DNA of 24,656 nucleotides from positions 1 to 24,656 of IMG/VR virus record IMGVR_UViG_3300017773_000130; one strand, written 5' to 3'. This document shows, one piece after another, positions 2,809 through 24,656 of this stretch (the first letter of the stretch is position 1; each line of letters begins with the position of its first letter). The notes beneath the pieces are model-generated. The model was not told the origin of the DNA, did not search any database, and saw only the letters and a list, made by a program, of their open reading frames with translations. The translations under genes were made by a program, and so were the position numbers. The DNA is from a virus.

Positions 2809-2997
2809 ATGTCTAGACTAGTGCTAACAAGGAAGATTAACGAACAAATCATCATTCACAAAGATGACGACGGCGTTTTGGCGACATTGAAAGTGTCAAA
2901 GGTTGACAGGAACCAGGTTCGCTTAACATTTGAAGCTGGTAATGAGATCAGGATTGATCGACAAGAAATATTCGACAAGAACGCTCCTACTAAATAA
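2809..2997 (+). CDS. csrA: CsrA/RsmA-family RNA-binding regulator
   Basis: At 62 aa this matches the usual CsrA length. CsrA dimers bind GGA motifs in mRNA leaders, usually blocking ribosome binding. The first strand has LVLTRK (residues 4-9, with R8 like CsrA R6), followed by an NE in place of the usual GE, the NQVRL block (35-39), and DRQEIF (50-55), whose R51 matches the RNA-contacting R44. It lies 4 nt after the polymerase stop with a poor ribosome binding site, so it may depend on coupling. The primase mRNA just downstream carries a GGA-containing hairpin loop, a possible target. It could act on phage or host mRNAs. The family call is firm and the target is unknown. Confidence 0.92.
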   Translation: MSRLVLTRKINEQIIIHKDDDGVLATLKVSKVDRNQVRLTFEAGNEIRIDRQEIFDKNAPTK

Positions 2998-11570: not shown

Positions 11571-11648
11571 ATGCTATTTGCTATTTTGCAAAAGCCAACA
11601 CAAGGAGGTGTGCGCCTTCGATTGGTGCACCGATGTACGTATGGCTGA
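11571..11648 (+). CDS. Possible 25-aa leader peptide
   Basis: ATG 11571 opens a 25-codon frame (MLFAILQKPT onward) ending at TGA 11646-11648, which overlaps the ATG at 11641 of the HTH gene. An AAGGAGG (11602-11608) sits inside it with no start codon at the usual distance. The ORF has no Shine-Dalgarno of its own and would start on a nearly leaderless mRNA. It may couple translation of the excisionase-like gene, or it may be chance. Confidence 0.25.
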   Translation: MLFAILQKPTQGGVRLRLVHRCTYG

Positions 11649-11844
11649 ATTACTAATGGAAAAGTATGGTCCTTTCATGGACATGAACGATTTGTCAGAT
11701 TTACTAAAAATAAAGAAACAATCAATGTACCAACAGATATATCATGGTCGTCTTAATATCCCCCATGCAAAATTAGGAAAAAAATATTTATTTCCAACGC
11801 ATGAAGTAGCTGCTTACATGACAAAAAGAATTTCAGTCTACTAA
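11641..11844 (+). CDS. xis: Excisionase-like helix-turn-helix protein, 67 aa
   Basis: The sequence MNDLSDLLKIKKQSMYQQIY, then GRLNIPHAKLGKKYLF and PTHEVAAYM, is the winged-HTH17/AlpA-type layout used by phage excisionases and small regulators. It overlaps the integrase gene tail to tail by 12 nt, the usual neighbour of Xis. An in-frame TTG at 11578 would add a Cys- and Trp-containing N-terminus (88 aa) that fits the family poorly; ATG 11641 has no good ribosome binding site, so the start is uncertain. As Xis it would bend attachment-site DNA and bias the integrase to excision. A plain transcription regulator is the alternative. Confidence 0.7.
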   Translation: MAELLMEKYGPFMDMNDLSDLLKIKKQSMYQQIYHGRLNIPHAKLGKKYLFPTHEVAAYMTKRISVY

Positions 11845-12837
11845 ATCTTCAGCTCTTAGATTTACATAACGTGACAACTGATCCAGGCTACTGTGGCCTG
11901 ACACCAGTCTAACTTGCTCTACCGGCATTTTTCGCACCTCAAACATGCGTGAAATTGCTTCGTGTCGAAGATCATGAAAACGTAAATCAACAATACCTAA
12001 TTTTGTACACATACGCGCAAATTTGTCAGAAATGCTTGAAGCACGTTTTACACAGAACACGGTTGAGCCCTTGCGAGATTCATTTGACAAGCGTAGGAGC
12101 ACCTCTCTCACGCCCTTCCACATAGGTATAACATGCCATTTTTTGCCGCCAACAGCCTTCCTGTTTTTTCTCCATAACCCTATTGTGCTTTTTTTAAAAT
12201 TAATATTTTTCCACTCTAACGCATGGATTTCACCTTGACGCATACCAGACTCAACTGCAATTTCTAACATTGGTCTTATCCAATGTGTGCCAGCCTCATC
12301 CATCAATCGTTCCCACTCGTTTCCTTCCAGTCGTCTATCGCGCTCTTCACTCTGCGCAATAATTTTACGATCAGTTAATATTTTAATTGCATTGTCAATG
12401 GGGCGCTCTACTAATTTAAGACCATGCAGTAGCTCTGCATTTACAATAGCTTGTTTAAAAAAATATAAATTTTTGCCTAAAGTAGAAGGCTTAACCGTTT
12501 TGCTTCGTTCAGCTGCAAAGTTCATAATTTCGTTAGCTTGTAATTCGTGAACAACAATGTGCCCGAAGTAGCGTCTAACCATGTCTAATTTGTGGGCCTT
12601 AGATTTGTCCATTACCTCAAATTTTTCTATGTCTGCTTTATACAAATCAAGAATGTCACTAATGAGCATGGACCGCGATTCGCGAGGATCGATCCACGAA
12701 CCATTTGCTATAGCCACTTGAGTCGAATAACCCCAAGTTTCTGCTTGGCCTTTAAGAGAAAATGTTTTTTGAACAGAGGGGAGGTTTTTTCTTTTGATGA
12801 CAGCTTGCCATACATCACCACGTTTCCGTACGTACAT
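11833..12837 (-). CDS. int: Tyrosine recombinase (phage integrase)
   Basis: A protein of 334 aa, a standard length. The N-terminal region (1-55) resembles arm-type DNA-binding domains, residues of about 57-150 the core-binding SAM-like domain, and the catalytic domain has R200 (SGMRQGEIHALEW), a Lys near 224-233, H288 and R291 (HDLRH), H315 (SGHSS) and the nucleophile Y324 (SRYVN). It joins phage attP to the host attB site. The gene faces away from the replication genes and its start abuts a hairpin that can hide its ribosome binding site (12838-12880). The probable attP core lies 82 bp upstream of the start codon. Confidence 0.97.
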   Translation of the reverse strand: MYVRKRGDVWQAVIKRKNLPSVQKTFSLKGQAETWGYSTQVAIANGSWIDPRESRSMLISDILDLYKADIEKFEVMDKSKAHKLDMVRRYFGHIVVHELQANEIMNFAAERSKTVKPSTLGKNLYFFKQAIVNAELLHGLKLVERPIDNAIKILTDRKIIAQSEERDRRLEGNEWERLMDEAGTHWIRPMLEIAVESGMRQGEIHALEWKNINFKKSTIGLWRKNRKAVGGKKWHVIPMWKGVREVLLRLSNESRKGSTVFCVKRASSISDKFARMCTKLGIVDLRFHDLRHEAISRMFEVRKMPVEQVRLVSGHSSLDQLSRYVNLRAEDLVD

Positions 12838-12880
12838 AATAAATCCTTTTGGGTGTCACACGGGTGTCTTAGGATTTATT
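12838..12880 (-). promoter_or_regulatory. Inverted repeat over the int ribosome binding site, enclosing arm-like repeats
   Basis: AATAAATCCT (12838-12847) and AGGATTTATT (12871-12880) are perfect 10-bp inverted arms. In the int mRNA the arm next to the ATG contains the AGGA Shine-Dalgarno and would be sequestered by the other arm. The 23-nt loop holds two direct GGGTGTC repeats (12851-12857 and 12862-12868), 11 bp apart, which reappear at 13068-13084. The site may serve both translation control and Int or Xis binding. Confidence 0.6.
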
Positions 12881-12918
12881 CTATAACTTTTTCTAGGTAA
12901 AACATACACTTATAAAGT

Positions 12919-12937
12919 TGGCGGAGGGACAGGGATT
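12919..12937. other. attP: Probable attP core, tRNA 3'-end identity block
   Basis: On the - strand, the 19 nt read as AATCCCTGTCCCTCCGCCA: a T-stem end, acceptor strand, discriminator G and CCA, as at the 3' end of tRNA-Ser type genes. The preceding bases depart from the T-loop consensus, as expected where identity with the host tRNA stops. The block lies close to int, the usual place for attP. Arm-like GGGTGTC repeats flank it at about 50 and 130 bp. The identity is inferred from pattern, not alignment. Confidence 0.5.
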
Positions 12938-13047
12938 GCAGCGTTTAAATGTCTAAATATTGTTCTATTTCAATCACTTATCTGCTATTTGAGCTATTTT
13001 GAACTTCAACTACTAAGTTTCGTAAGTTCATGATATTTCTATTTATT

Positions 13048-13167
13048 TTATTTTAAACTTTTTCTTTGGGTGTCACTGACACCCGCGCTTTTACGACCTA
13101 TATCCAGGTCATCAATTGCAATTGCGCTTAAACTAAGCAGTGAAAATACCAACATGTAAACGATCAT
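13048..13167 (-). CDS. Small ORF, 39 aa, with signal-peptide-like N-terminus
   Basis: The ORF is preceded by AGAGG (13173-13177, spacing 5) and a TATAAT -10 (13193-13198 on the - strand). The first 18 residues, MIVYMLVFSLLSLSAIAI, are hydrophobic and contain SAIA before an acidic DDLD, resembling a signal peptide with an Ala-X-Ala cleavage site, though it lacks a basic N-region. The remaining part is short and basic. It lies in the attP region and contains the GGGTGTCA inverted repeat (13068-13084), so part of its sequence is fixed by that DNA site. The function is unknown. Confidence 0.4.
   Translation of the reverse strand: MIVYMLVFSLLSLSAIAIDDLDIGRKSAGVSDTQRKSLK
13068..13084. repeat. GGGTGTCA inverted pair, candidate integrase arm site
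   Basis: GGGTGTCA (13068-13075) and TGACACCC (13077-13084) form an 8-bp inverted repeat around one base. The same heptamer occurs twice as a direct repeat at 12851-12868 on the other side of the putative core. Four copies bracketing a tRNA-like core resemble the P and P' arms of a lambda-type attP. Confidence 0.5.
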
Positions 13168-13241: not shown

Positions 13242-13475
13242 TTATACAAATCTGTATGTACCGCGATTCTTTTTACGGCTTACTACTTTGACGTTCCCTT
13301 TTTTATTGTTGCGAGGGTTCCCATCTTTGTGATGCACGTCTTTTTTATCGCCTTTTTTTACCTTCCCTGCAGCTAAAGCGGCACGACGTGCTTTGTTGCG
13401 GCCAGCCCGATTCTTTTTTTGATCTGACTTACTATGGTATCCCGCATACTCTTTTTTGTAATCTCTAGTAGCCAT
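13242..13475 (-). CDS. Small basic HNH-like phage protein, 77 aa
   Basis: The N-terminal half is very basic (RDYKKEYAGYHSKSDQKKNR, then ARRAALAAGKVKKGDKKD), followed by DVHHKDGNPRNNKKGNVKVV, which keeps the His-His and Asn of the HNH ββα-metal core. Similar short proteins recur in marine phage genomes, in my recollection, annotated as HNH endonucleases. It lacks the Cys pairs of larger HNH nucleases, so whether it cuts DNA is open. It is the last clear gene of the leftward tail operon and overlaps the preceding microprotein by 11 nt. Confidence 0.75.
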   Translation of the reverse strand: MATRDYKKEYAGYHSKSDQKKNRAGRNKARRAALAAGKVKKGDKKDVHHKDGNPRNNKKGNVKVVSRKKNRGTYRFV

Positions 13476-14897: not shown

Positions 14898-15566
14898 TCA
14901 GACCCTAAATACTATAATTTCGTAGTTGTAATTGCCGCCATACAAATTACCGCCTGTACCAAAGTTAGCCAGGTTTAAACCAATAGCATTAGTTCCAACA
15001 AAACATTGCACAAGACTACCCTGAGCTTGATTGTTAATACCCCAAGTACCATCAGCCGCCATGCCGGTTACAGATATAGTGGTAGTGCCTGATATTGTGC
15101 CGGTGTAAACACTATGAAATTTGCATAAACGGTTGTCGTAACGCAGTCTGGAGTTTCCATTGGCATCAAATATTTCTAAACCGTAAACAGGAAGCACGCC
15201 CACCGCACCGCTAAGCACGAATGTTTTAGTCTGTTGATTTGCTGCAGAACCACTAACTGGGTTTTCATGGTAATGCGTGATTACAACTTCACAACGATAA
15301 GCCGTGTTGTTATTAACAGGCGTTACTGTAATCGTATTGCCCGACCTAACGTTTGTTGAAGGGCTTACTGTGCAATTTAATAATGTAAACACAGCTATTG
15401 AGTATGAAGAATAGATGAGACTTTGAGCTTGACCGTAAGTATTAGTCCCCACGGTAACCGTCAGACTAACAGTGTCATTGATTTGGATATCTTGTGTAGC
15501 ACTCGTTGTCGTCGGGTACTGACTAACTGAAGAGTTACTAGTAATACCAACTGTATACGTAGCCAT
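14898..15566 (-). CDS. Phage tail-associated protein, 222 aa
   Basis: The start ATG overlaps the stop of the large fibre gene (TAATG at 15564-15568). The first 120 residues are a Thr/Ser/Val-rich beta sandwich-like sequence; residues of about 130-145 read VYGLEIFDANGNSRLRYDNR, a block I recall from tail proteins in several phages. The remainder is Gly-rich. It probably forms part of the tail tip or fibre attached to the preceding protein. There is no catalytic motif. Confidence 0.75.
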   Translation of the reverse strand: MATYTVGITSNSSVSQYPTTTSATQDIQINDTVSLTVTVGTNTYGQAQSLIYSSYSIAVFTLLNCTVSPSTNVRSGNTITVTPVNNNTAYRCEVVITHYHENPVSGSAANQQTKTFVLSGAVGVLPVYGLEIFDANGNSRLRYDNRLCKFHSVYTGTISGTTTISVTGMAADGTWGINNQAQGSLVQCFVGTNAIGLNLANFGTGGNLYGGNYNYEIIVFRV

Positions 15567-18500
15567 TACGCTGACAAGTTACCAAGCTGCACACGGAGCG
15601 TACTACCATCAAAAATTTTAATAACATCTGATGCAACTTCCATGCGAGATCCGCTCGCTGCAGATTTAATACTAAGTCCTGTGCCCGTGCCCTGGATGTT
15701 GACCTGCGACGCGTCTATTGTACCGCCTACAATTTTGTCTGCTGACATAGAACCCGAAGTAATAGTGTCTGCGTTAATTGAACCAATTTTAGCTGCTGTA
15801 ATTGATGCGTCTTCGATCGCTGCAGCTTTTATATAAACGACCCCGTTCGTTACACCAAAAGGTATAACATCGGCAGAAGGTGTATTTGTTGTACCGTTAG
15901 CCGTTGATGAGGGATCAACGATTGCAAACTTGTCCGCACGAATTACAAATGCTGACTCAGGTGTACCATCGACATCAACGCTAGATAGTCCAAAACCTGA
16001 TACATGGCCGTTGTTATCTATTTTTACAGAATACTGAGCTTCAAGTCCTGATATGTCAGAAGCAGTAGCAGTAAAACCTTGTTCCACTGTAACACCAGTA
16101 CCACCAGCATTATTTAACCTAGCAGTCAAACCATTAACAGTTGATGCCGCTGAAGTTGCAGAACCTGCCGCATTAGTAGCTGCGGTAGAAGCAGTGCTTG
16201 AAAATGTACTTGCGTTAGATTCACTTGTTGCAGCATTAGTAGCACTTGCCGCTGCAGAAGAAGCCGATACGCCTGCTTCACTAGCTTTAGTAGCCGCCGT
16301 GCTAGCACTACCTGAAGCCGCTGAAGCGGAGTTGCCAGCATTGTTTTCTGATGTCGCAGCGTTACTAGCAGAAGTACCGGCAGCTGATTCAGAACCCGCC
16401 GCATTTGTTTCGCTAGAAGCCGCATTTGTTTCAGCAGTCTCTGCGCCAGCTTGAGCGGTTTCTGCTGCATTTTTTGCACTAGTGGCAGTACTAGCCGCTG
16501 TTCCAGCCTCCGTAGCTTTAGTGGCAGCAGTAGCAGCAGATGTGTTTGCTGCACTTGCACTATTACCAGCGTTATTTTCAGAGGTTGCAGCATTCGAGGC
16601 GCTTGTGGCCGCAGCTGACTCTGAACCCGCAGCATTAGTTTCACTTGTTGCTGCATTTGTTTCAGCAGTTTCAGCTGCTCCCTTCGCTGTTTCTGCTGCA
16701 TTTTTTGCTTGAGTAGCTGTTGTAGCAGCCTGGCTTGCGTCTGTAGCTTTAGTAGAAGCAATACTAGCATTAGAGGCGGCAGCGCTTGCACTACTACCAG
16801 CATTATTTTCAGAGGTTGCAGCATTAGTAGCAGATGTCCCAGCAGAAGACGCGGAGCCTGCCGCATTTGTTTCACTAGAAGCCGCATTTGTTTCAGCAGT
16901 TTCTGCACCTGCTTTAGCTGTTTCAGCCGCTGTTTTTGCAGTATCAGCTGCAGTTGCTGACTGGCTAGCTTCTGTTGCTTTTGTAGAAGCTGTAGATGCA
17001 GCAGTAGACGCTGATGTAGCAGACTGACCGGCAGCCGTAGCGCTATTTGCTGCAGTAGTAGCAGAAGTACCGGCAGCTGACTCCGATCCCGCTGCATTTG
17101 TTTCGCTTGTTGCTGCATTAGTCTCAGCAGTTTCTGCACCCGCTTGAGCAGTTTCTGCCGCTGTTTTTGCAGTATTTGCTGCGCCTGCAGAAGTACCAGC
17201 ATTTGAGGCACTTGTTGACGCTAATGAAGCGTTTGTTGATGCAGCAGTTGCAGATTGACCAGCTTGATTTTCAGATGTTGCTGCATTAGATGCGGATGTA
17301 GCCGCTGCTGCTTCAGAAGAATCAGCATTAGTAGCAGAACTTGCTGCGGATGTAGCGGCAGTTATAGCATTAGATTCAGCAGTTTCTGCTGCAAGTTCTG
17401 CAGTTTGAGCTGCCGATGCACTTGTACCAGCCGCGGATGCACTAGTCGCTGCTGAAGTTGCTGAATTACCCGCTGCCGTTGCCGAAGATGCGGCATTTGT
17501 CTCAGCTGCCTCGGCATCAGTTACGGCTTGTTGAGCATCTGCCAAACTAGATGCTGCAGATACACTGCTAGATTGTGCCGCAGTAGAAGCTGTTCCCGCA
17601 TTAGTAGCGTGAGTAGCAGCAGACGAAGCACTTGTAGACGCCGCTGTTGCGCTCTGACCAGCTGCATTTTCTGAGTTAGCCGCATTTGTAGCACTAGTAG
17701 CTGCGCTTGATGCTGATCCAGCAGCGGTGGTTGCAGATGAAGCTGCATTTGTTTCAGCTGTTTCTGCACCTGCTTTAGCTGTCTCTGCTGCTAGCTTCGC
17801 AGTGTTTGCAGCGCTCGAAGCTGTACCCGCATCAGTAGCAGATGTAGCAGCATTCGAAGCGCTTGTAGCCGCAGCTGTAGCGGAACTACCTGCATTATTT
17901 TCTGAACTAGCTGCATTAGTTGCTGAAGTACCAGCTGATGAAGCTGATCCAGCAGCGCTCGTAGCTGAATTAGAAGCGGCAGTTTCAGCGGTTTCAGCCG
18001 CTGCCTTAGCAGTAACTGCATTAGTTTCTGCCGTTTCTGCATTAGACTCAGCAGTTTCTGCACCCGATTGCGCGGATAAAGCCGCAACTTTAGCCGCTAG
18101 TGCATTTGTATAGGCAGTACTTGCACCTGTTTCTGCAGTCTCTGCATCTACTTGAGCAGCAAGAGCTAATATTTTTGCTGCATTAGAATTTGTTTCTGCA
18201 GTTTCGGCTCCACTTTGAGCAGCAATTGCCGCTGTACGCGCTGTAATAGAACTATCTCTAGCACTTTCTGAACTCGTTTGAGCCGCTAAAGCCGCTACTT
18301 TTGCTGCCAATGCAGCCGCCGCATCAGAGTTAGCGGCTGCAGCAGAAGATGCAGAAGAAGCCGTATTTCCATAAGTTGTTACAAGCCCAGACGCAGTTGT
18401 TTCTACACTACCTATACGACTAAGAAGGTTTCCTGCAGATGAAACGCTATATGAACTTGAGTATCCAACAAAGGATTCAAGGTTTGCTAAATCAACAGCT

Positions 18501-19138
18501 GATCCAGAACCATCAATCTGATTTGCTAAAGATGTGCTTAACTGACTAACAGAAATAGCACCAGTTAGCTCATCAAGAATATGAGCAGGGTCAGTAGCTG
18601 TAGTTGCAAGGGTACCATTACTACTGTTAAACGGCCCTTTAACATCGCTTGTGTTGACATGTCTTATCCAATAGTAACGAGAAACTCCACCACCTGTTGG
18701 GTCTATGTAACTACGACCCGTCGCCACACCAGTTAAGGTAGCGTCACCAATGGTGTCAGATGTGTGCGACCAAATTTCTGTCTGTGAGTGCGAAGTATAA
18801 CTAGGCATATCCCAAAACAAATTAACTTGGCTGAAAGCTGCACTAGCTGTAAAACCAGTAGGGACTAGTGGGGTACTAGTTGCAACAAACGTATTATCCG
18901 ACATTCCTATGTTGGATACGTTTATATTGTTTGGATCAAAAGCACTAGATTTTAATTCTGATGCAAGACCTGATGCTATAAGTTCGCGTAACGTTACAGC
19001 TCTATCGACAGGATCTCCTCTTCGACCAAGTCTTATTTCTAATGCTTCGGCAATGCTTTCTAAATATTTTGTAAGTTGAGGAGGAATACCCGTTGGTGGT
19101 TTAGGTATACCTGGAATTTTTGTTGGAGTAGGTTTCAT
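15566..19138 (-). CDS. Long tail fibre protein: fibronectin III, Ala-heptad shaft, gpJ-like C-terminus
   Basis: A protein of 1190 aa. The N-terminus (MKPTPTKIPGIPKPPTGIPP) is Pro-rich, residues of about 92-182 look like a fibronectin type III domain (VPTGFTASAAFSQVNLFWD), residues of about 260-1000 are an Ala/Ser/Thr heptad region, and the last 185 resemble the lambda gpJ C-terminal (DUF1983) segment with YSVKIDNNGHVSGFGL and the repeated ITAAKIGSINADTI pattern. The product would be a trimeric, rod-like fibre. ATG 19138 forms ATGA with the stop of the 567-aa gene and has GGAGGAGAT upstream, so it is preferred to the TTG at 19174. Receptor contact at the C-terminal end is inferred from gpJ. 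Confidence 0.85.
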   Translation of the reverse strand: MKPTPTKIPGIPKPPTGIPPQLTKYLESIAEALEIRLGRRGDPVDRAVTLRELIASGLASELKSSAFDPNNINVSNIGMSDNTFVATSTPLVPTGFTASAAFSQVNLFWDMPSYTSHSQTEIWSHTSDTIGDATLTGVATGRSYIDPTGGGVSRYYWIRHVNTSDVKGPFNSSNGTLATTATDPAHILDELTGAISVSQLSTSLANQIDGSGSAVDLANLESFVGYSSSYSVSSAGNLLSRIGSVETTASGLVTTYGNTASSASSAAAANSDAAAALAAKVAALAAQTSSESARDSSITARTAAIAAQSGAETAETNSNAAKILALAAQVDAETAETGASTAYTNALAAKVAALSAQSGAETAESNAETAETNAVTAKAAAETAETAASNSATSAAGSASSAGTSATNAASSENNAGSSATAAATSASNAATSATDAGTASSAANTAKLAAETAKAGAETAETNAASSATTAAGSASSAATSATNAANSENAAGQSATAASTSASSAATHATNAGTASTAAQSSSVSAASSLADAQQAVTDAEAAETNAASSATAAGNSATSAATSASAAGTSASAAQTAELAAETAESNAITAATSAASSATNADSSEAAAATSASNAATSENQAGQSATAASTNASLASTSASNAGTSAGAANTAKTAAETAQAGAETAETNAATSETNAAGSESAAGTSATTAANSATAAGQSATSASTAASTASTKATEASQSATAADTAKTAAETAKAGAETAETNAASSETNAAGSASSAGTSATNAATSENNAGSSASAAASNASIASTKATDASQAATTATQAKNAAETAKGAAETAETNAATSETNAAGSESAAATSASNAATSENNAGNSASAANTSAATAATKATEAGTAASTATSAKNAAETAQAGAETAETNAASSETNAAGSESAAGTSASNAATSENNAGNSASAASGSASTAATKASEAGVSASSAAASATNAATSESNASTFSSTASTAATNAAGSATSAASTVNGLTARLNNAGGTGVTVEQGFTATASDISGLEAQYSVKIDNNGHVSGFGLSSVDVDGTPESAFVIRADKFAIVDPSSTANGTTNTPSADVIPFGVTNGVVYIKAAAIEDASITAAKIGSINADTITSGSMSADKIVGGTIDASQVNIQGTGTGLSIKSAASGSRMEVASDVIKIFDGSTLRVQLGNLSA
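16140..18360 (-). repeat. Ala-rich heptad region with 231-bp super-repeats
   Basis: Nearly every seventh residue is Ala, giving about 105 consecutive heptads (such as AETAETN, AATSENN, AGNSASA). Above this runs a 77-residue (11-heptad, 231-bp) unit, each starting AETA(K/Q/E)xx AETAETN, visible as at least four full copies in the C-terminal half and degenerate copies before. The stop-free antisense frames over this stretch are composition artefacts. Confidence 0.85.
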
Positions 19139-20838
19139 GTCCCACGGATCTCCTCCATCGACTGCGCTAAACAAAACTCATTAATGTCAGTCCCTTCAAC
19201 TTGCACTTCCCACTCCTGAGCAACAACAGCAGGCATGCGCATAATAGGTTCTCTTAAAGTACCGTTACTAATACTGCTAGGCACAGTAGTCGCCTGTATG
19301 TAAGTTGATCCAGATTTGGTTAGGGTATAGTGAGCAACTAATGTTCCGTCACCATAAACTTTCACAGTAGCGGGGTACTCGTTTGCATGAACTGAAACCC
19401 AACCCATGCTAACGGGGGAGGGGGTGACGAACTTTTTACTTTTAAATGTCGCAGTTTTACTTGTGCTGCCACCGCGATACTTTTTAATTTTATTCCCAAC
19501 AATAATATACAACTCCCCGTCTTTAGGGTTCATATATCCGCCGCGAATTCCCGCAGAAATAGTAAGCGTTGTTAGTGCATTTTCTTCACCTCGGGGGTCA
19601 TATACCCAGCCACCACTAGAATGAAATGCTACATATGTGCCTTCATGTTTAAACGCACGAATAGTTGTAGGATTAAATGTGCTATTCCACTGTTCAACAC
19701 TGATAAGACCAGCGGTGACCACGGACCCCGAAGCGCTCTGCACGGCACATAAACCATCTGGACCTGCATAAAGAACATAGTCCCCCATATCTACAACGCT
19801 GTTAATATTCACACAAGCTTGAGCTAAATCTATACGGACCGCTGTCATTGCTGATGGGTCGGTACCTGTGATGAAATATGGTTGCCCATCAGTTAGAGCT
19901 GCGACACCATTTGCAGTAGACGCAATAGCAACAATGTCTTCTTCAGTCGTTATACGATAGCTAATTGGCCATGCGTGAGGGAGGAAGGGTTCGCTCAAAC
20001 AAAAACGTTTGCCTGTAAACCCAGCCATAACGCCTTGCGCTAAAGAAATCAGCCCTTTTAGAGGGCCGTCTGGATACAAACTAGAGTTATCGTCTGGTGG
20101 TCCAATCCAAGTATCACTCGGTAAAACTTCACCTAGATTTGCTGCATCTGTAGTGTCCGTAAATGAAGTCGCCGTATAAGCTACCTCACCTACAAACTGA
20201 AAAGTTGTATTAGTACTACCCGTATTAGACCGATAAACACGTTTTAACGCACCAGTTGTTAAATTATAGTTACCAGAAGGTTGCTGCCCTGTAGATAAAG
20301 TAACAGTTACCGACTCAGTGTCTGTTAACTCTATGACCGTACTTGGGCTGCTAGGTGGACCTTCTTCGCCCATCGCCGTAACAAATGTGTACACATAAGA
20401 AACATCATTAGGCGTGGCAGTGTCATCCGCCGTCCCTGTTTTAGCCGTTGTCGGAGCACCTGATGGGGCAGGGACACCTAACCTAAAAGAATTTGCGGGG
20501 TAACCCGATGCACCACTTACTAAAGTACTTACATTACCAACCCTAGGGTAGTCATCGCCGGTAAAATACAATCTATCGGTTGTATCACCAGGTATTGGAC
20601 CAGGAACAACCGACACGTTGTCTTCGTTCCATTCTAACCAGCTTGTATCTCTGTAAAAATAAATTGATCTACGCTGCGTATTTTGCAGAGTGTAAGTATC
20701 AGAATTATCTTTTATCGAAACAAGCCTGCCTGACTCAAGATCAACATTCTCAGCTGTTTGGCCAAACTGGTCAGCGAGCAACCTGGGGGAAACCCCAGGT
20801 GCAATTCCGCTAAACCTGTCCCGTTTAAAATACGCCAT
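19135..20838 (-). CDS. Phage structural protein, beta-rich, 567 aa
   Basis: The N-terminus (MAYFKRDRFSGIAPGVSPRL, then LADQFGQTAENVDLESG) is a motif I recall from many marine podovirus-like genomes, where it marks a conserved virion protein of unclear role. The body is beta-rich with recurring turns such as DGxLVAHYTL and GDYVLYAGPDGLCAV that suggest a propeller-like fold, comparable to tail hub or nozzle proteins. GAGGT precedes ATG 20838, 7 nt after the upstream stop. It overlaps the large fibre gene by 4 nt. A neck, nozzle or fibre-attachment role is inferred from its position. Confidence 0.7.
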   Translation of the reverse strand: MAYFKRDRFSGIAPGVSPRLLADQFGQTAENVDLESGRLVSIKDNSDTYTLQNTQRRSIYFYRDTSWLEWNEDNVSVVPGPIPGDTTDRLYFTGDDYPRVGNVSTLVSGASGYPANSFRLGVPAPSGAPTTAKTGTADDTATPNDVSYVYTFVTAMGEEGPPSSPSTVIELTDTESVTVTLSTGQQPSGNYNLTTGALKRVYRSNTGSTNTTFQFVGEVAYTATSFTDTTDAANLGEVLPSDTWIGPPDDNSSLYPDGPLKGLISLAQGVMAGFTGKRFCLSEPFLPHAWPISYRITTEEDIVAIASTANGVAALTDGQPYFITGTDPSAMTAVRIDLAQACVNINSVVDMGDYVLYAGPDGLCAVQSASGSVVTAGLISVEQWNSTFNPTTIRAFKHEGTYVAFHSSGGWVYDPRGEENALTTLTISAGIRGGYMNPKDGELYIIVGNKIKKYRGGSTSKTATFKSKKFVTPSPVSMGWVSVHANEYPATVKVYGDGTLVAHYTLTKSGSTYIQATTVPSSISNGTLREPIMRMPAVVAQEWEVQVEGTDINEFCLAQSMEEIRGT

Positions 20839-21481: not shown

Positions 21482-24400
21482 CTAGTTGTTTTCAAGTTGT
21501 GTTATTCGTGCTTCAAGTTCTTGTATAGTTGCAACCAATAGCGGTACTAGCTTGCTCTGGTCGATGCCTTGGTAATCAGGGACAGACCTAGTACCCATAA
21601 CAGCTTCAGTGGTTACATTGCCTTCATTATCTAGTACTGCGGGAGTAACTTCATACTCCTCGTCTTTCATTGCGTCTTTTGTGCCTGTTATTGCTTCAGG
21701 TACAACGTCTGCAACCTCGTGTGCAAGGAAGCCATCGACAGTAGCGTCAGCATTGGCAATAAAATTAAATCGTTTAGGTTCTAATTGCTTAAGTCTTTCT
21801 GTAGCACTTGACATAGCTACTACGTTTTCTTTAAGACGGTAGTCAGACGAAGTGGTGTAAGAGGTAGAAGAACCACTGGCTGAAATTGAACCAACTATTC
21901 CATTTGCGTTGTAAAAATATTGATAAACGTGCAAACCTGTTCCGGTATGGCTGTTAAGAATTTGAGAGTCAGCTGACCTTATTTCAATCCCATTACTAGC
22001 GCCTGAATTTGACCACGAAGCAAATTTAGCTGTGCCGCCAATATTAGCAACGCCTGATAGGTATAGGTCTTTCCAACGATGGCTTGCTAATCCAATGTCA
22101 ACTGTTGCATCTACATCTGATCCAGCCCGTCTTGGGATTATGCTGGTGTTTTGAAATCTTATTCCTGTGTCACCATCGATGTGCAAATCACCATTAGCAG
22201 TACCAATTTTACCTATAGATGATAATCCTTGGTAAAACTCCATTAAATCCCCTGAGTTGGTAAGGCGATTTACAATAACAGGACACCCACCGTCTCTAGT
22301 AAATCCTGCAAAACTATTTGGTTTTATTTCATGCCCTGCAACTGTAAAGTTTGCACTAGTCTTACCAACGAGCAAATCACCGCCTGATGTGAGCCTTGCC
22401 TTCTCTTGAGGGTTAGCAGACGAACCAGTTGCAAAAGATAAAGCATATGCTGTTCCAAAAATATTATCAGCTACAGCACTAATTTTTGCTTGAACGCCAG
22501 TACCGCCAGTTGAAGAATCACTTGAACTAAATTCAATATCACCAATAGATTCCCCTGAATTAACAGATGTATCAAGACTTTGTAACTTTATTCCATTAGT
22601 GTTTGAAGTTATTCCTACGCTTGTTATGGCTCCTGTAAATGATCCAGTTGTTGCATTTGCCGTCCCAGATAGGTGGAGGTCACGGAAACGAGCAGAAGAG
22701 GCTTCCCCCAAATCAACAGTACCATTTGCATAATTACCGTTCTTATAAGGATTCACAGCCGCATCGCTAAAGTTTAATCCTGCGTGGCTTGAGTTTCCTG
22801 AAATTGTCAGGTTGTCTCCGTTGTCAACACCAATCGAGCCTACGGTTGTGCCGTCTTTGGCAAAAGCCAAGATAGCGCCATCTGAGTTTTGTCTATTTAA
22901 ATAAGCATTTATTTCACCATTAGTACTGCTGTAATACTGACCATTACTTAAAATGTTGTGACCGTAGTTGTCAGCGTTATCGTTCCATAAAGTTGTATCA
23001 GTAGTCCCCACGAGCAAATCACCGCCTGATAAGCGCATCTTCTCTGAGCCGCCCGATTGGAAGAGCAAAATGCCAGTGTTTCTTGCGTTTAATGTAAGTG
23101 ATGAACTGCTTGTTGTAATAGTACCGTGTACTGCTGAACCAGATTTGATATCTATTGCATTTACATTTGCCGTCCCAGATAGGTGTAGGTCTTTGAAGCG
23201 TCCACCTGACCAACCTAAATCTATTGTGGCATCAACATCAGAACCGTTTTGTCTTGAGCCAATAGCGCCAGCAAACATTTTTAATCCTGCATGACTTGCT
23301 TCACCGTCTAAGTAAAAACCACTTGACTCTATACCAATCGAGCCTACCTGTGCATTTGCCTTATCAAATCTAACGATTTCACCATCACTACTCAGCCGAT
23401 TAAAGTAAGCAACTAGCCCACCATTAACAGTGCTTTCTTGCGCTCCAGTTGGACTAAATTTATGCCCTGCAACACCTGAAGAAGAAGAAGTCTTACCCAC
23501 GAGCAAATCACCGCCAGCCGTCAGCATCATGTTGGTCTGAGGTGTGGCAGTGTTTCCTGCTGTACCTGCTGGAGCAGTAGCCCAATAGTGTATGCCGTTA
23601 GTTATTTGATAACTACCGACTGCTACAGAGCTGACAGAATACTTGTAGGTTGATGCCGCGTCCCAAAATAAACCAGACATAAAATGAGTATCTGCCGCAC
23701 CTCTACCTGTTATGCTTGAGCCAGAATTACCAATTTCTAGAGATTTATAGTGTGAAGCTGAAGGAACAACACCAATACCCACCGACCCTGATGAGTCTAT
23801 GACCATCTGAATCTGGGAGGCACTAGTAGGTCCTGTGCCGCCATTTCCAAACATAATATTACCAGCAGAACCTCCGCTTCTTCCTATCCATACAGAACCA
23901 GCGTATGTACTATGTGCATGACCATAAAGTTTTACACCACCACCTGCTCCACTAGAACCAAACCCAGCTTGAATATTTACATCTCCTGCCCAAGTTGCAT
24001 CAGCTCCTTCTACAAGAAGGTATCTTCCAGCGTTTGTTCCTTTTGAAAAACCTATGTTGCCATTTACTTCTAGTGGCTGATTTGGCGCAGTGGTACTTCC
24101 CACCATTAATCCACCGTTAGCAATATTTATATTTTGTGCAGAAGTAATTCTAAGAGCTTCGGCAGAACTAGAGCCTGTTAAAAACTGAAAGCCTCCATTG
24201 GCAGTATTTGCTATATGGTAGTTGGTTCCATTACGACCATAATAAAAGTCATTACCATTTGCGGCTATTGTATAATTTCCGTTAGTTCCAGTTTTTAAGA
24301 AAGTACCACTTGATGTCACGCTACCACCAACATTTAGACCATGACCAATGGTCGATGCTTCATACGACTTTAACTGTATAGTTGCAGTGCCACCGTGGTT

Positions 24401-24656
24401 ATAATAAAACGCTCCACCTTGACCTGCACCTGTTAAGTCACCGACAGCGGCTATGTTAGTTCCATCAGTTTCTTTAATAAAAAGAAGTGCATCATCATTT
24501 TGCATTGTGATGTTGCCTGAAAAAGTAGCACCCGCATTAAACGTAGCCGCACCGCCGATGGTGGTTGCACCGTTTCCAAATACTCTTAGCAAAACATTAC
24601 TAGCATCGTGGTCAACAACATTTAAAGCAATATCACTTCCAGTAGACCCTGCGGCA
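21482..24656 (-). CDS. Tail fibre with C-terminal S74 intramolecular chaperone (5' end beyond window)
   Basis: The frame is open to the window edge, so at least 1057 residues are present and the N-terminus is missing; TTG 24592 is not the real start. The body is Gly/Ser/Asn-rich beta sequence with three tandem modules containing GDLLVGKT (or GTT), NRLxSxGE, SIG, and DVDATIDLG or TVDLG followed by RFKDLHLSGTANV, a fibre with repeated receptor-binding or shaft units. The C-terminus, from SSDYRLKENV (about 21825-21850) on, is the endosialidase chaperone (Peptidase_S74), ending with a coiled coil (LEARITQLENN). S74 domains guide trimer folding, then cut themselves off at the Ser before Asp in this motif. 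Confidence 0.93.
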   Translation of the reverse strand, partial: AAGSTGSDIALNVVDHDASNVLLRVFGNGATTIGGAATFNAGATFSGNITMQNDDALLFIKETDGTNIAAVGDLTGAGQGGAFYYNHGGTATIQLKSYEASTIGHGLNVGGSVTSSGTFLKTGTNGNYTIAANGNDFYYGRNGTNYHIANTANGGFQFLTGSSSAEALRITSAQNINIANGGLMVGSTTAPNQPLEVNGNIGFSKGTNAGRYLLVEGADATWAGDVNIQAGFGSSGAGGGVKLYGHAHSTYAGSVWIGRSGGSAGNIMFGNGGTGPTSASQIQMVIDSSGSVGIGVVPSASHYKSLEIGNSGSSITGRGAADTHFMSGLFWDAASTYKYSVSSVAVGSYQITNGIHYWATAPAGTAGNTATPQTNMMLTAGGDLLVGKTSSSSGVAGHKFSPTGAQESTVNGGLVAYFNRLSSDGEIVRFDKANAQVGSIGIESSGFYLDGEASHAGLKMFAGAIGSRQNGSDVDATIDLGWSGGRFKDLHLSGTANVNAIDIKSGSAVHGTITTSSSSLTLNARNTGILLFQSGGSEKMRLSGGDLLVGTTDTTLWNDNADNYGHNILSNGQYYSSTNGEINAYLNRQNSDGAILAFAKDGTTVGSIGVDNGDNLTISGNSSHAGLNFSDAAVNPYKNGNYANGTVDLGEASSARFRDLHLSGTANATTGSFTGAITSVGITSNTNGIKLQSLDTSVNSGESIGDIEFSSSDSSTGGTGVQAKISAVADNIFGTAYALSFATGSSANPQEKARLTSGGDLLVGKTSANFTVAGHEIKPNSFAGFTRDGGCPVIVNRLTNSGDLMEFYQGLSSIGKIGTANGDLHIDGDTGIRFQNTSIIPRRAGSDVDATVDIGLASHRWKDLYLSGVANIGGTAKFASWSNSGASNGIEIRSADSQILNSHTGTGLHVYQYFYNANGIVGSISASGSSTSYTTSSDYRLKENVVAMSSATERLKQLEPKRFNFIANADATVDGFLAHEVADVVPEAITGTKDAMKDEEYEVTPAVLDNEGNVTTEAVMGTRSVPDYQGIDQSKLVPLLVATIQELEARITQLENN
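22360..23520 (-). repeat. Tandem fibre modules with near-identical DNA segments
   Basis: The string CGAGCAAATCACCGCC occurs near 22369-22384, 23011-23026 and 23500-23515 (+ strand), each encoding the GGDLLVG motif of one module. GCCGTCCCAGATAGGTG occurs near 22660 and 23170 and encodes the HLSGTA motif. The high DNA identity inside otherwise diverged modules suggests recombination or recent duplication. Confidence 0.7.

Follow-up and report, generated by a model that had tools for sequence, protein, structure and literature searches.

Introduction

The integrase of phage lambda acts on an attachment site in which arm-type sites lie on both sides of the core with IHF sites between, and it carries a small N-terminal domain that binds the arms, as outlined in PMC4880445. 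The cluster K mycobacteriophages, as PMC3203893 sketches them, have the tmRNA gene's 3′ end as core, with pairs of putative arm sites flanking it. Closely related phages of the cluster differ in arm consensus and, with it, in positions 17 and 19 of the integrase N-terminus; Pixie and Tweety are said to have the site in common but not the arm sequences. Integrases of uncultured marine phages have been found adjoining a tRNA fragment, which was used for host inference; the attP–tRNA matches cited span 36–55 bp, against 19–21 bp here, and the arms are not treated in the available text of these accounts (PMC3861242, PMC4981710). A survey of tyrosine recombinases covers the arm-binding domain, its available text leaving aside the DNA motifs of the arms (PMC8138268). 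The open-access literature on integrase arm specificity, most subscription journals being beyond its scope, yielded cluster K as the one close precedent. To our knowledge, few integrases have had their arm sites mapped.

The locus described here lies in a virus record of 24,656 bases, the whole of which we call the window. Judged from its sequence, the stretch 12851–13084 is very probably the attP of a temperate phage fragment, lambda-like in its working and with arms that change together with the integrase N-domain. As in the published outline of lambda attP, arm-type sites flank the core, IHF-like sites lie between, in an order resembling H1, H2 and H′ (PMC4880445), and the integrase has an N-terminal domain. 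Unlike lambda, the site has two inverted P and two direct P′ sites, a tRNA-Ser core and an arm sequence specific to the phage. An RNA-gene 3′ end as core, flanking arm pairs and arm variation with the integrase N-terminus are shared with cluster K as it is summarised in print; there the differences are small and the phages few, whereas the 42 loci compared here have ten kinds of arm, the offsets are fixed and the N-domain is exchanged as a whole. This switching of the arms with the N-domain is our main result and was absent from the initial annotation, which had proposed a lambda-like attP next to int.

Results

Reading in the sense of int, with the first base of the core as 0, the site begins on the P side with a 17-bp palindrome (13068–13084) made of two inverted arm sites, GGGTGTCA (13068–13075) and TGACACCC (13077–13084), about a central G. 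GGGTGTC lies at −147 and GACACCC at −137, this inner copy standing 137 nt ahead of the core start. IHF-like 13-mers follow at −98 (H1-like, 13023–13035, minus strand) and −43 (H2-like, 12968–12980, minus strand), then the core itself, AATCCCTGTCCCTCCGCCA (12919–12937, minus strand), a weaker IHF-like 13-mer at +25 (H′-like, 12900–12912, minus strand) and two putative P′ arm sites, GACACCC at +69 (12862–12868, minus strand) and +80 (12851–12857, minus strand), and finally int. Scored against what we take to be the IHF consensus, these 13-mers have one, one and two mismatches respectively, the H′-like site being weak. The gene int (11833–12837, minus strand) encodes a tyrosine integrase of 334 residues (PF00589, E 6e-23). 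Convergent with it is a candidate Xis gene (11578–11844, plus strand) for an HTH_17 protein (PF12728, E 1.3e-7); such a convergent frame is present in 43 of 45 relatives. More than 200 nt separate the P palindrome from the gene segment coding for the integrase N-domain. Both GGGTGTC pairs had been located correctly in the initial annotation, the direct one, on the plus strand at 12851–12857 and 12862–12868 and 11 bp apart, being exact and the inverted one having the right starting points at 13068 and 13077.

On both strands of the window GGGTGTC occurs five times, four of them at the attP; 100 dinucleotide shuffles gave a mean of 1.27 copies and reached five in two cases. The window has a single copy of the spaced pair GACACCCN4GACACCC, and the 100 shuffles have none. 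The 19-nt core block is likewise found once in the window.

Other reading frames lie close by. A tiny hydrophobic frame of 39 residues (13167–13048, minus strand; MIVYMLVFSLLSLSAIA...) runs into the P palindrome, and by eye similar short frames seem to occupy the same spot in L150 and L172. An HNH_3 endonuclease frame (13242–13475, minus strand) flanks the P arm, and coding DNA like it adjoins attP, again by eye, in L171, L172, L177 and L193. Further away the window encodes a CsrA-like protein (2809–2997, plus strand; PF02599, E 9e-12) and two long tail-type proteins (21482–24655 and 15566–19174, both minus strand), one of the pair with a C-terminal Peptidase_S74 match and one rich in Ala/Ser/Thr repeats.

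Relatives were gathered by searching first with the integrase and later with an alignment of five rows. This gave 61 loci; L211 was left out for its short flank and the other 60 reduced to 49 distinct N-termini. The P-side test used 45 loci, L209, L212, L213 and L226 being without a motif, and the covariation, trees and tree counts used 42, leaving out L207, L217 and L222. Motifs were assigned by eye, and related loci are non-independent events. In the 50 nt ahead of int, 43 of the 49 distinct loci have a 6-mer repeated perfectly with a spacing of exactly 11 bp; the other spacings between 5 and 22 are each met in 0–2 loci. Shuffled sequences (n = 200) gave a mean of 0.46 loci with the 11-bp repeat and a maximum of 3, and two control stretches gave 0 of 49 at this spacing. 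The six loci lacking the perfect repeat are L172, L205, L207, L209, L212 and L213; for the last three no arm pair was seen. On the P side, beyond the core, each phage's own motif recurs as an inverted pair in 41 of 45 loci, and the other 6-mer motifs of the set do so in none. The P-side copy starts exactly at −137 from the core in 34 of the 45. L216, L217, L219 and L223 are the four misses, L216 having a palindrome visible in another register. The results for L207 and L222 are weak, since these were tested with a self-complementary 4-mer and a 5-mer. IHF-like matches with at most one mismatch fall at −98 in 30 of 36 attPs, at −43 in 28 and at +25 in 17; any other listed offset has at most 1 of 36. 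The proposed integrase arm sites beside the core thus find support in repeats on both core sides among relatives, and the lambda-like reading gains from the recurrence of the layout.

The core was compared with bacterial DNA in a 19-mer scan of genome contigs, tRNA genes being called with ARAGORN, which returned at least 127 copies in at least 118 stretches. Among the matches listed, at least 119 of the 127 copies form the 3′ end of an ARAGORN tRNA-Ser, with anticodons TGA (106), CGA (6), GGA (5) and one printed 'act' (2); eight listed copies have no tRNA call, at least L025 of these being at a contig end. The core is identical to a bacterial target, arm-type repeats stand on both sides of it in the sequence and a tyrosine integrase gene adjoins it, three of the features of a lambda-type attP. 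The reading of the block as a tRNA-Ser-type 3′ end on the minus strand was borne out: with a relaxed pattern, 43 of 49 distinct relatives have such a core in the same orientation and five have it flipped, 48 in all, leaving one with none. The commoner core forms, AATCCCTCYYTCTCCGCCA, were found at ten places in five of 12 genomes checked, eight of them ending an ARAGORN tRNA-Ser and two without a call. The exact 19-mer also occurs in 29 viral stretches. In L123, L126, L134 and L148 it adjoins this integrase and the remainder of a tRNA is missing, and in the others T-loop sequence precedes it.

In the subgroup with the flipped core (L215, L216, L217, L219 and L220), where the core is opposite in orientation to int, the P side would restore the tRNA; these loci also have an extra arm-like copy between palindrome and core. 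Two 19-mers, in L032 (7586–7604, plus strand) and L006 (1285–1303, minus strand), lie outside called tRNA genes, one of them shortly past a complete tRNA-Ser in Halopseudomonas; both are possible remnants of old attachment sites. In the viral contigs L121, L133 and L145 a different integrase (28% identical) lies close to a tRNA-Ser end that contains this 19-mer, and this tRNA-Ser target appears to be used by other integrase groups as well.

Among the listed matches, the identity of the genomic copies with the window stops at the upstream end of the 19-mer and goes on for at most two bases downstream. A homology of only 19–21 bp is too short to name a host, and naming one from the 19-mer was rejected, the block being found in many gammaproteobacteria and some other groups. 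No close-family lysogen was found in 390 genomes at E ≤ 1e-60, in a search run without a positive control, and later genome samples, the last two of which were the same five genomes, gave only cousins in place of a close-family prophage. A complete tRNA was found in 0 of 6 and 0 of 43 viral loci scanned, sets that partly overlap. With no close relative found integrated, insertion into tRNA-Ser is predicted rather than observed. Megablast returned no close named phage, the best integrase being 33% identical. Marinobacter phage PS6 (L159) has an integrase 33% identical over 99% of the query and, upstream of int, GTACCA repeated at 11 bp, an arm motif that differs from ours; no tRNA-Ser core was seen in the stretch of it that was examined.

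Cousin integrases, some 33–36% identical, sit behind other tRNA genes, with the same layout and another target. We found 18 of them in 15 of 369 bacterial genomes. Fourteen are 70–174 nt downstream of a tRNA gene for Met, Val, Arg, Pro, Ala, Asn, Leu or Lys, and none of these 14 is behind tRNA-Ser. The order in the chromosome is tRNA, 11-bp repeat, int, and the repeat is present at 15 of the 18 loci. Arm type and target therefore vary separately. Among 60 distinct out-of-family loci the 11-bp repeat occurs within 110 nt in 40, the next best spacing in eight. Attachment-site repeats were sought around six cousins. L244 has a 57-bp tRNA-Met repeat 20.5 kb away, followed by a second P′-like stretch, with one copy of its own motif 115 nt ahead of the distant repeat; it is likely a tandem element. 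No repeat was found around L231, L233 and L326; the repeats of L325 lie away from any tRNA, and that of L329 is its own arm pair.

Arms and core could both be real and the true host target still be another tRNA-Ser isoacceptor or locus sharing only the 19-mer, or integration could have been lost. The shortness of the homology, the lack of a lysogen in the genomes searched and the use of other tRNA genes by the cousins all fit such a reading. We nevertheless consider it unlikely, given a tRNA-Ser-type core beside an intact integrase frame in nearly every distinct relative. The site looks like a genuine lambda-style attP for insertion at a serine tRNA gene, in a virus of marine bacteria.

The arm sequence itself is variable. 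Ten kinds are present in the 42 loci (GACACC, GTCACA, GGCACA, GGCACC, GACGGA, GACGCA, GACCCA, GGCGGA, GGGGCA and GGGACA), and within each phage the copies on the two core sides agree, mostly at fixed distance. Across the 42 loci, motif is correlated with the integrase N-domain when the catalytic part is held constant (partial Mantel r 0.47, p 0.0005) and not with the catalytic part when the N-domain is held constant (r −0.06, p 0.82). The ten kinds require ten motif changes on the N-domain tree against 20 on the catalytic tree, both being built quickly and having long branches and several forks that are weak; shuffled motif labels gave a mean of 26.3 changes and a minimum of 22 in 200 draws. 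The catalytic tree, needing 20, thus retains a little signal. From these comparisons the arm sequence tracks the N-domain of the integrase and not its catalytic part.

Individual pairs of relatives illustrate the exchange. The integrases of L172 and L177 differ by 1.1% in the catalytic part (99% identical) and by 43% in the N-domain (57% identical), and their motifs are GACACC and GGCACA. The DNA flanking the P palindrome is nearly identical on both sides in the two loci, thus the P-side change is confined to the palindrome. L181 and L194 have N-domains 49% different and different motifs; L170 and L171 follow the same swap pattern, the L170 stretch being without an Xis for comparison. The relatives look as though they keep the tRNA-Ser target and repeatedly swap their arms and, along with these, the region of the integrase that would read them.

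The swap pairs also bear on whether the repeats bind the excisionase and not the integrase. The 11-bp spacing is what an excisionase might require, as recombination directionality factor (RDF) sites are typically described as direct repeats one helix turn apart (PMC7498355), and an Xis-like gene adjoins int. The Xis proteins are, however, 98.5% identical in L172/L177 and 96.8% identical in L181/L194 despite the different motifs, and it is the N-domains that differ, which speaks against the motif being read by Xis; L216/L220 is uninformative, its Xis differing too (69% identical). We therefore regard binding by the excisionase as quite improbable. Weaker still is the proposal that the repeats serve as operators, for a phage repressor or for autoregulation of int, and that neither the P palindrome nor the P′ pair takes part in recombination. 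The P′ pair is placed where an int promoter could be, and the palindrome resembles an operator. Against this, the motif goes with the N-domain of the integrase, and its P-side copy stands at a fixed distance from the core; the proposal seems very unlikely indeed.

Integrase residues 1–48 are predicted to form the arm-binding domain. The predicted fold (E2-6 E9-16 E19-26 H29-45, mean pLDDT 90.9) is a three-stranded sheet and a helix, as in AP2-like arm-binding domains. Foldseek with the N-domain model gave no match at E ≤ 0.001, and a PDB sequence search with the N-domain gave nothing useful. The top four VIA-align rows are 1gcc, 7et4, 7wq5 (which we take to be an AP2 protein) and 6sy0, with Z of 5.8, 5.8, 5.6 and 5.0, a range the tool calls possibly mere common arrangement, over 49–52 residues with rmsd 2.4–3.9. 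That the best rows for the model are DNA-binding AP2 domains (Z 5.0–5.8) is suggestive only. No integrase arm-domain entry is among the structure matches listed by Foldseek and VIA-align, an absence that carries no weight. The Glu and Arg in the AEIR stretch of the ERF domain touch bases in AtERF1. The readers of GACGGA have this same AEIR stretch, which is noted at positions 15–18 of plant ERF domains in the available text of PMC9748296.

Alignment columns were ranked using 95 locus pairs whose sequences beyond the N-domain are at least 80% identical; the two loci share their motif in 36 of these pairs and differ in it in 59. Of 333 columns, those that best fit the pattern of differing only when the motif differs are 9, 23, 13, 10, 8, 21, 11 and 2; the best column outside the N-domain, 232, ranks fifteenth. 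In the model, columns 9, 11, 13 and 15 alternate along predicted strand 2 and 21, 23 and 25 along predicted strand 3. The strongest residue/arm-position pairs are 15 with 6, 4 with 3 and 13 with 4: Lys-15 goes with C and Arg-15 mostly with A at arm position 6, and Gln-13 goes mostly with A and Glu-13 and Asp-13 with G at arm position 4. Among the out-of-family loci, GTCACA accompanies Q11/Q13/R15 in five of six cases, and all four loci with Y11/E13/R15 carry GACGCA. From this covariation we infer base-specific contact by the N-domain sheet.

A predictor based on residues 11, 13 and 15 was trained on the 42 family loci and applied to 35 others, of which 18 were testable; L240, L243, L269, L276 and L297 were dropped, their register being unclear. 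It was exactly right for 11 of 18, namely 11 of 12 where the triple had been seen at least twice in training and none of six where it had been seen once. Taking the motif of the nearest neighbour was right for 9 of 18 by the N-domain and for 5 of 18 by the catalytic part, and a score of 11 was attained with permuted labels in 2 of 5000 cases. Positions 9, 11, 13 and 15 had been noted before the bacterial set, and the triple was chosen after the bacterial and out-of-family loci were known. As the triple was chosen late and some of the test loci are closely related to one another, the predictor counts as support and not as a finished code.

Discussion

The layout and its covariation with the N-domain can be read directly from the loci compared; binding, bending, integration and excision would then proceed as follows. 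The integrase N-domain would hold the two inverted P-arm sites and the two direct P′ sites, and bends at the IHF-like sites between arms and core would let the catalytic domains act on the 19-bp tRNA-Ser 3′ end. Insertion would rebuild the tRNA, with int about 80 nt behind it. In this phage family the core stays nearly constant while the variable arms on its two sides change together with the N-domain that would read them.

A more specific proposal is that arm specificity is an exchangeable module, that residues of the sheet read single arm bases and that arm types constitute compatibility groups; taken as a whole this is tentative and less likely than not to hold. In the module, the N-domain, the P′ pair and the distant P palindrome would be replaced together, with the core, the IHF-like sites and the catalytic domain staying in place. 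Prophages that share one tRNA-Ser target would have to avoid excision by each other's integrase, and arm exchange may be selected for that reason. The HNH_3 endonuclease beside attP might favour exchange of attP segments.

The same 6-mer occurring twice at 11 bp before int, with its inverted motif beyond the core, could serve as a finder of arm sites that needs sequence only. These phages provide a natural series of arm specificities on one scaffold, with which a recognition code for the integrase arm domain becomes testable. It likewise becomes possible to test by what route, and for what reason, arm sites that lie apart change in step with a protein domain.
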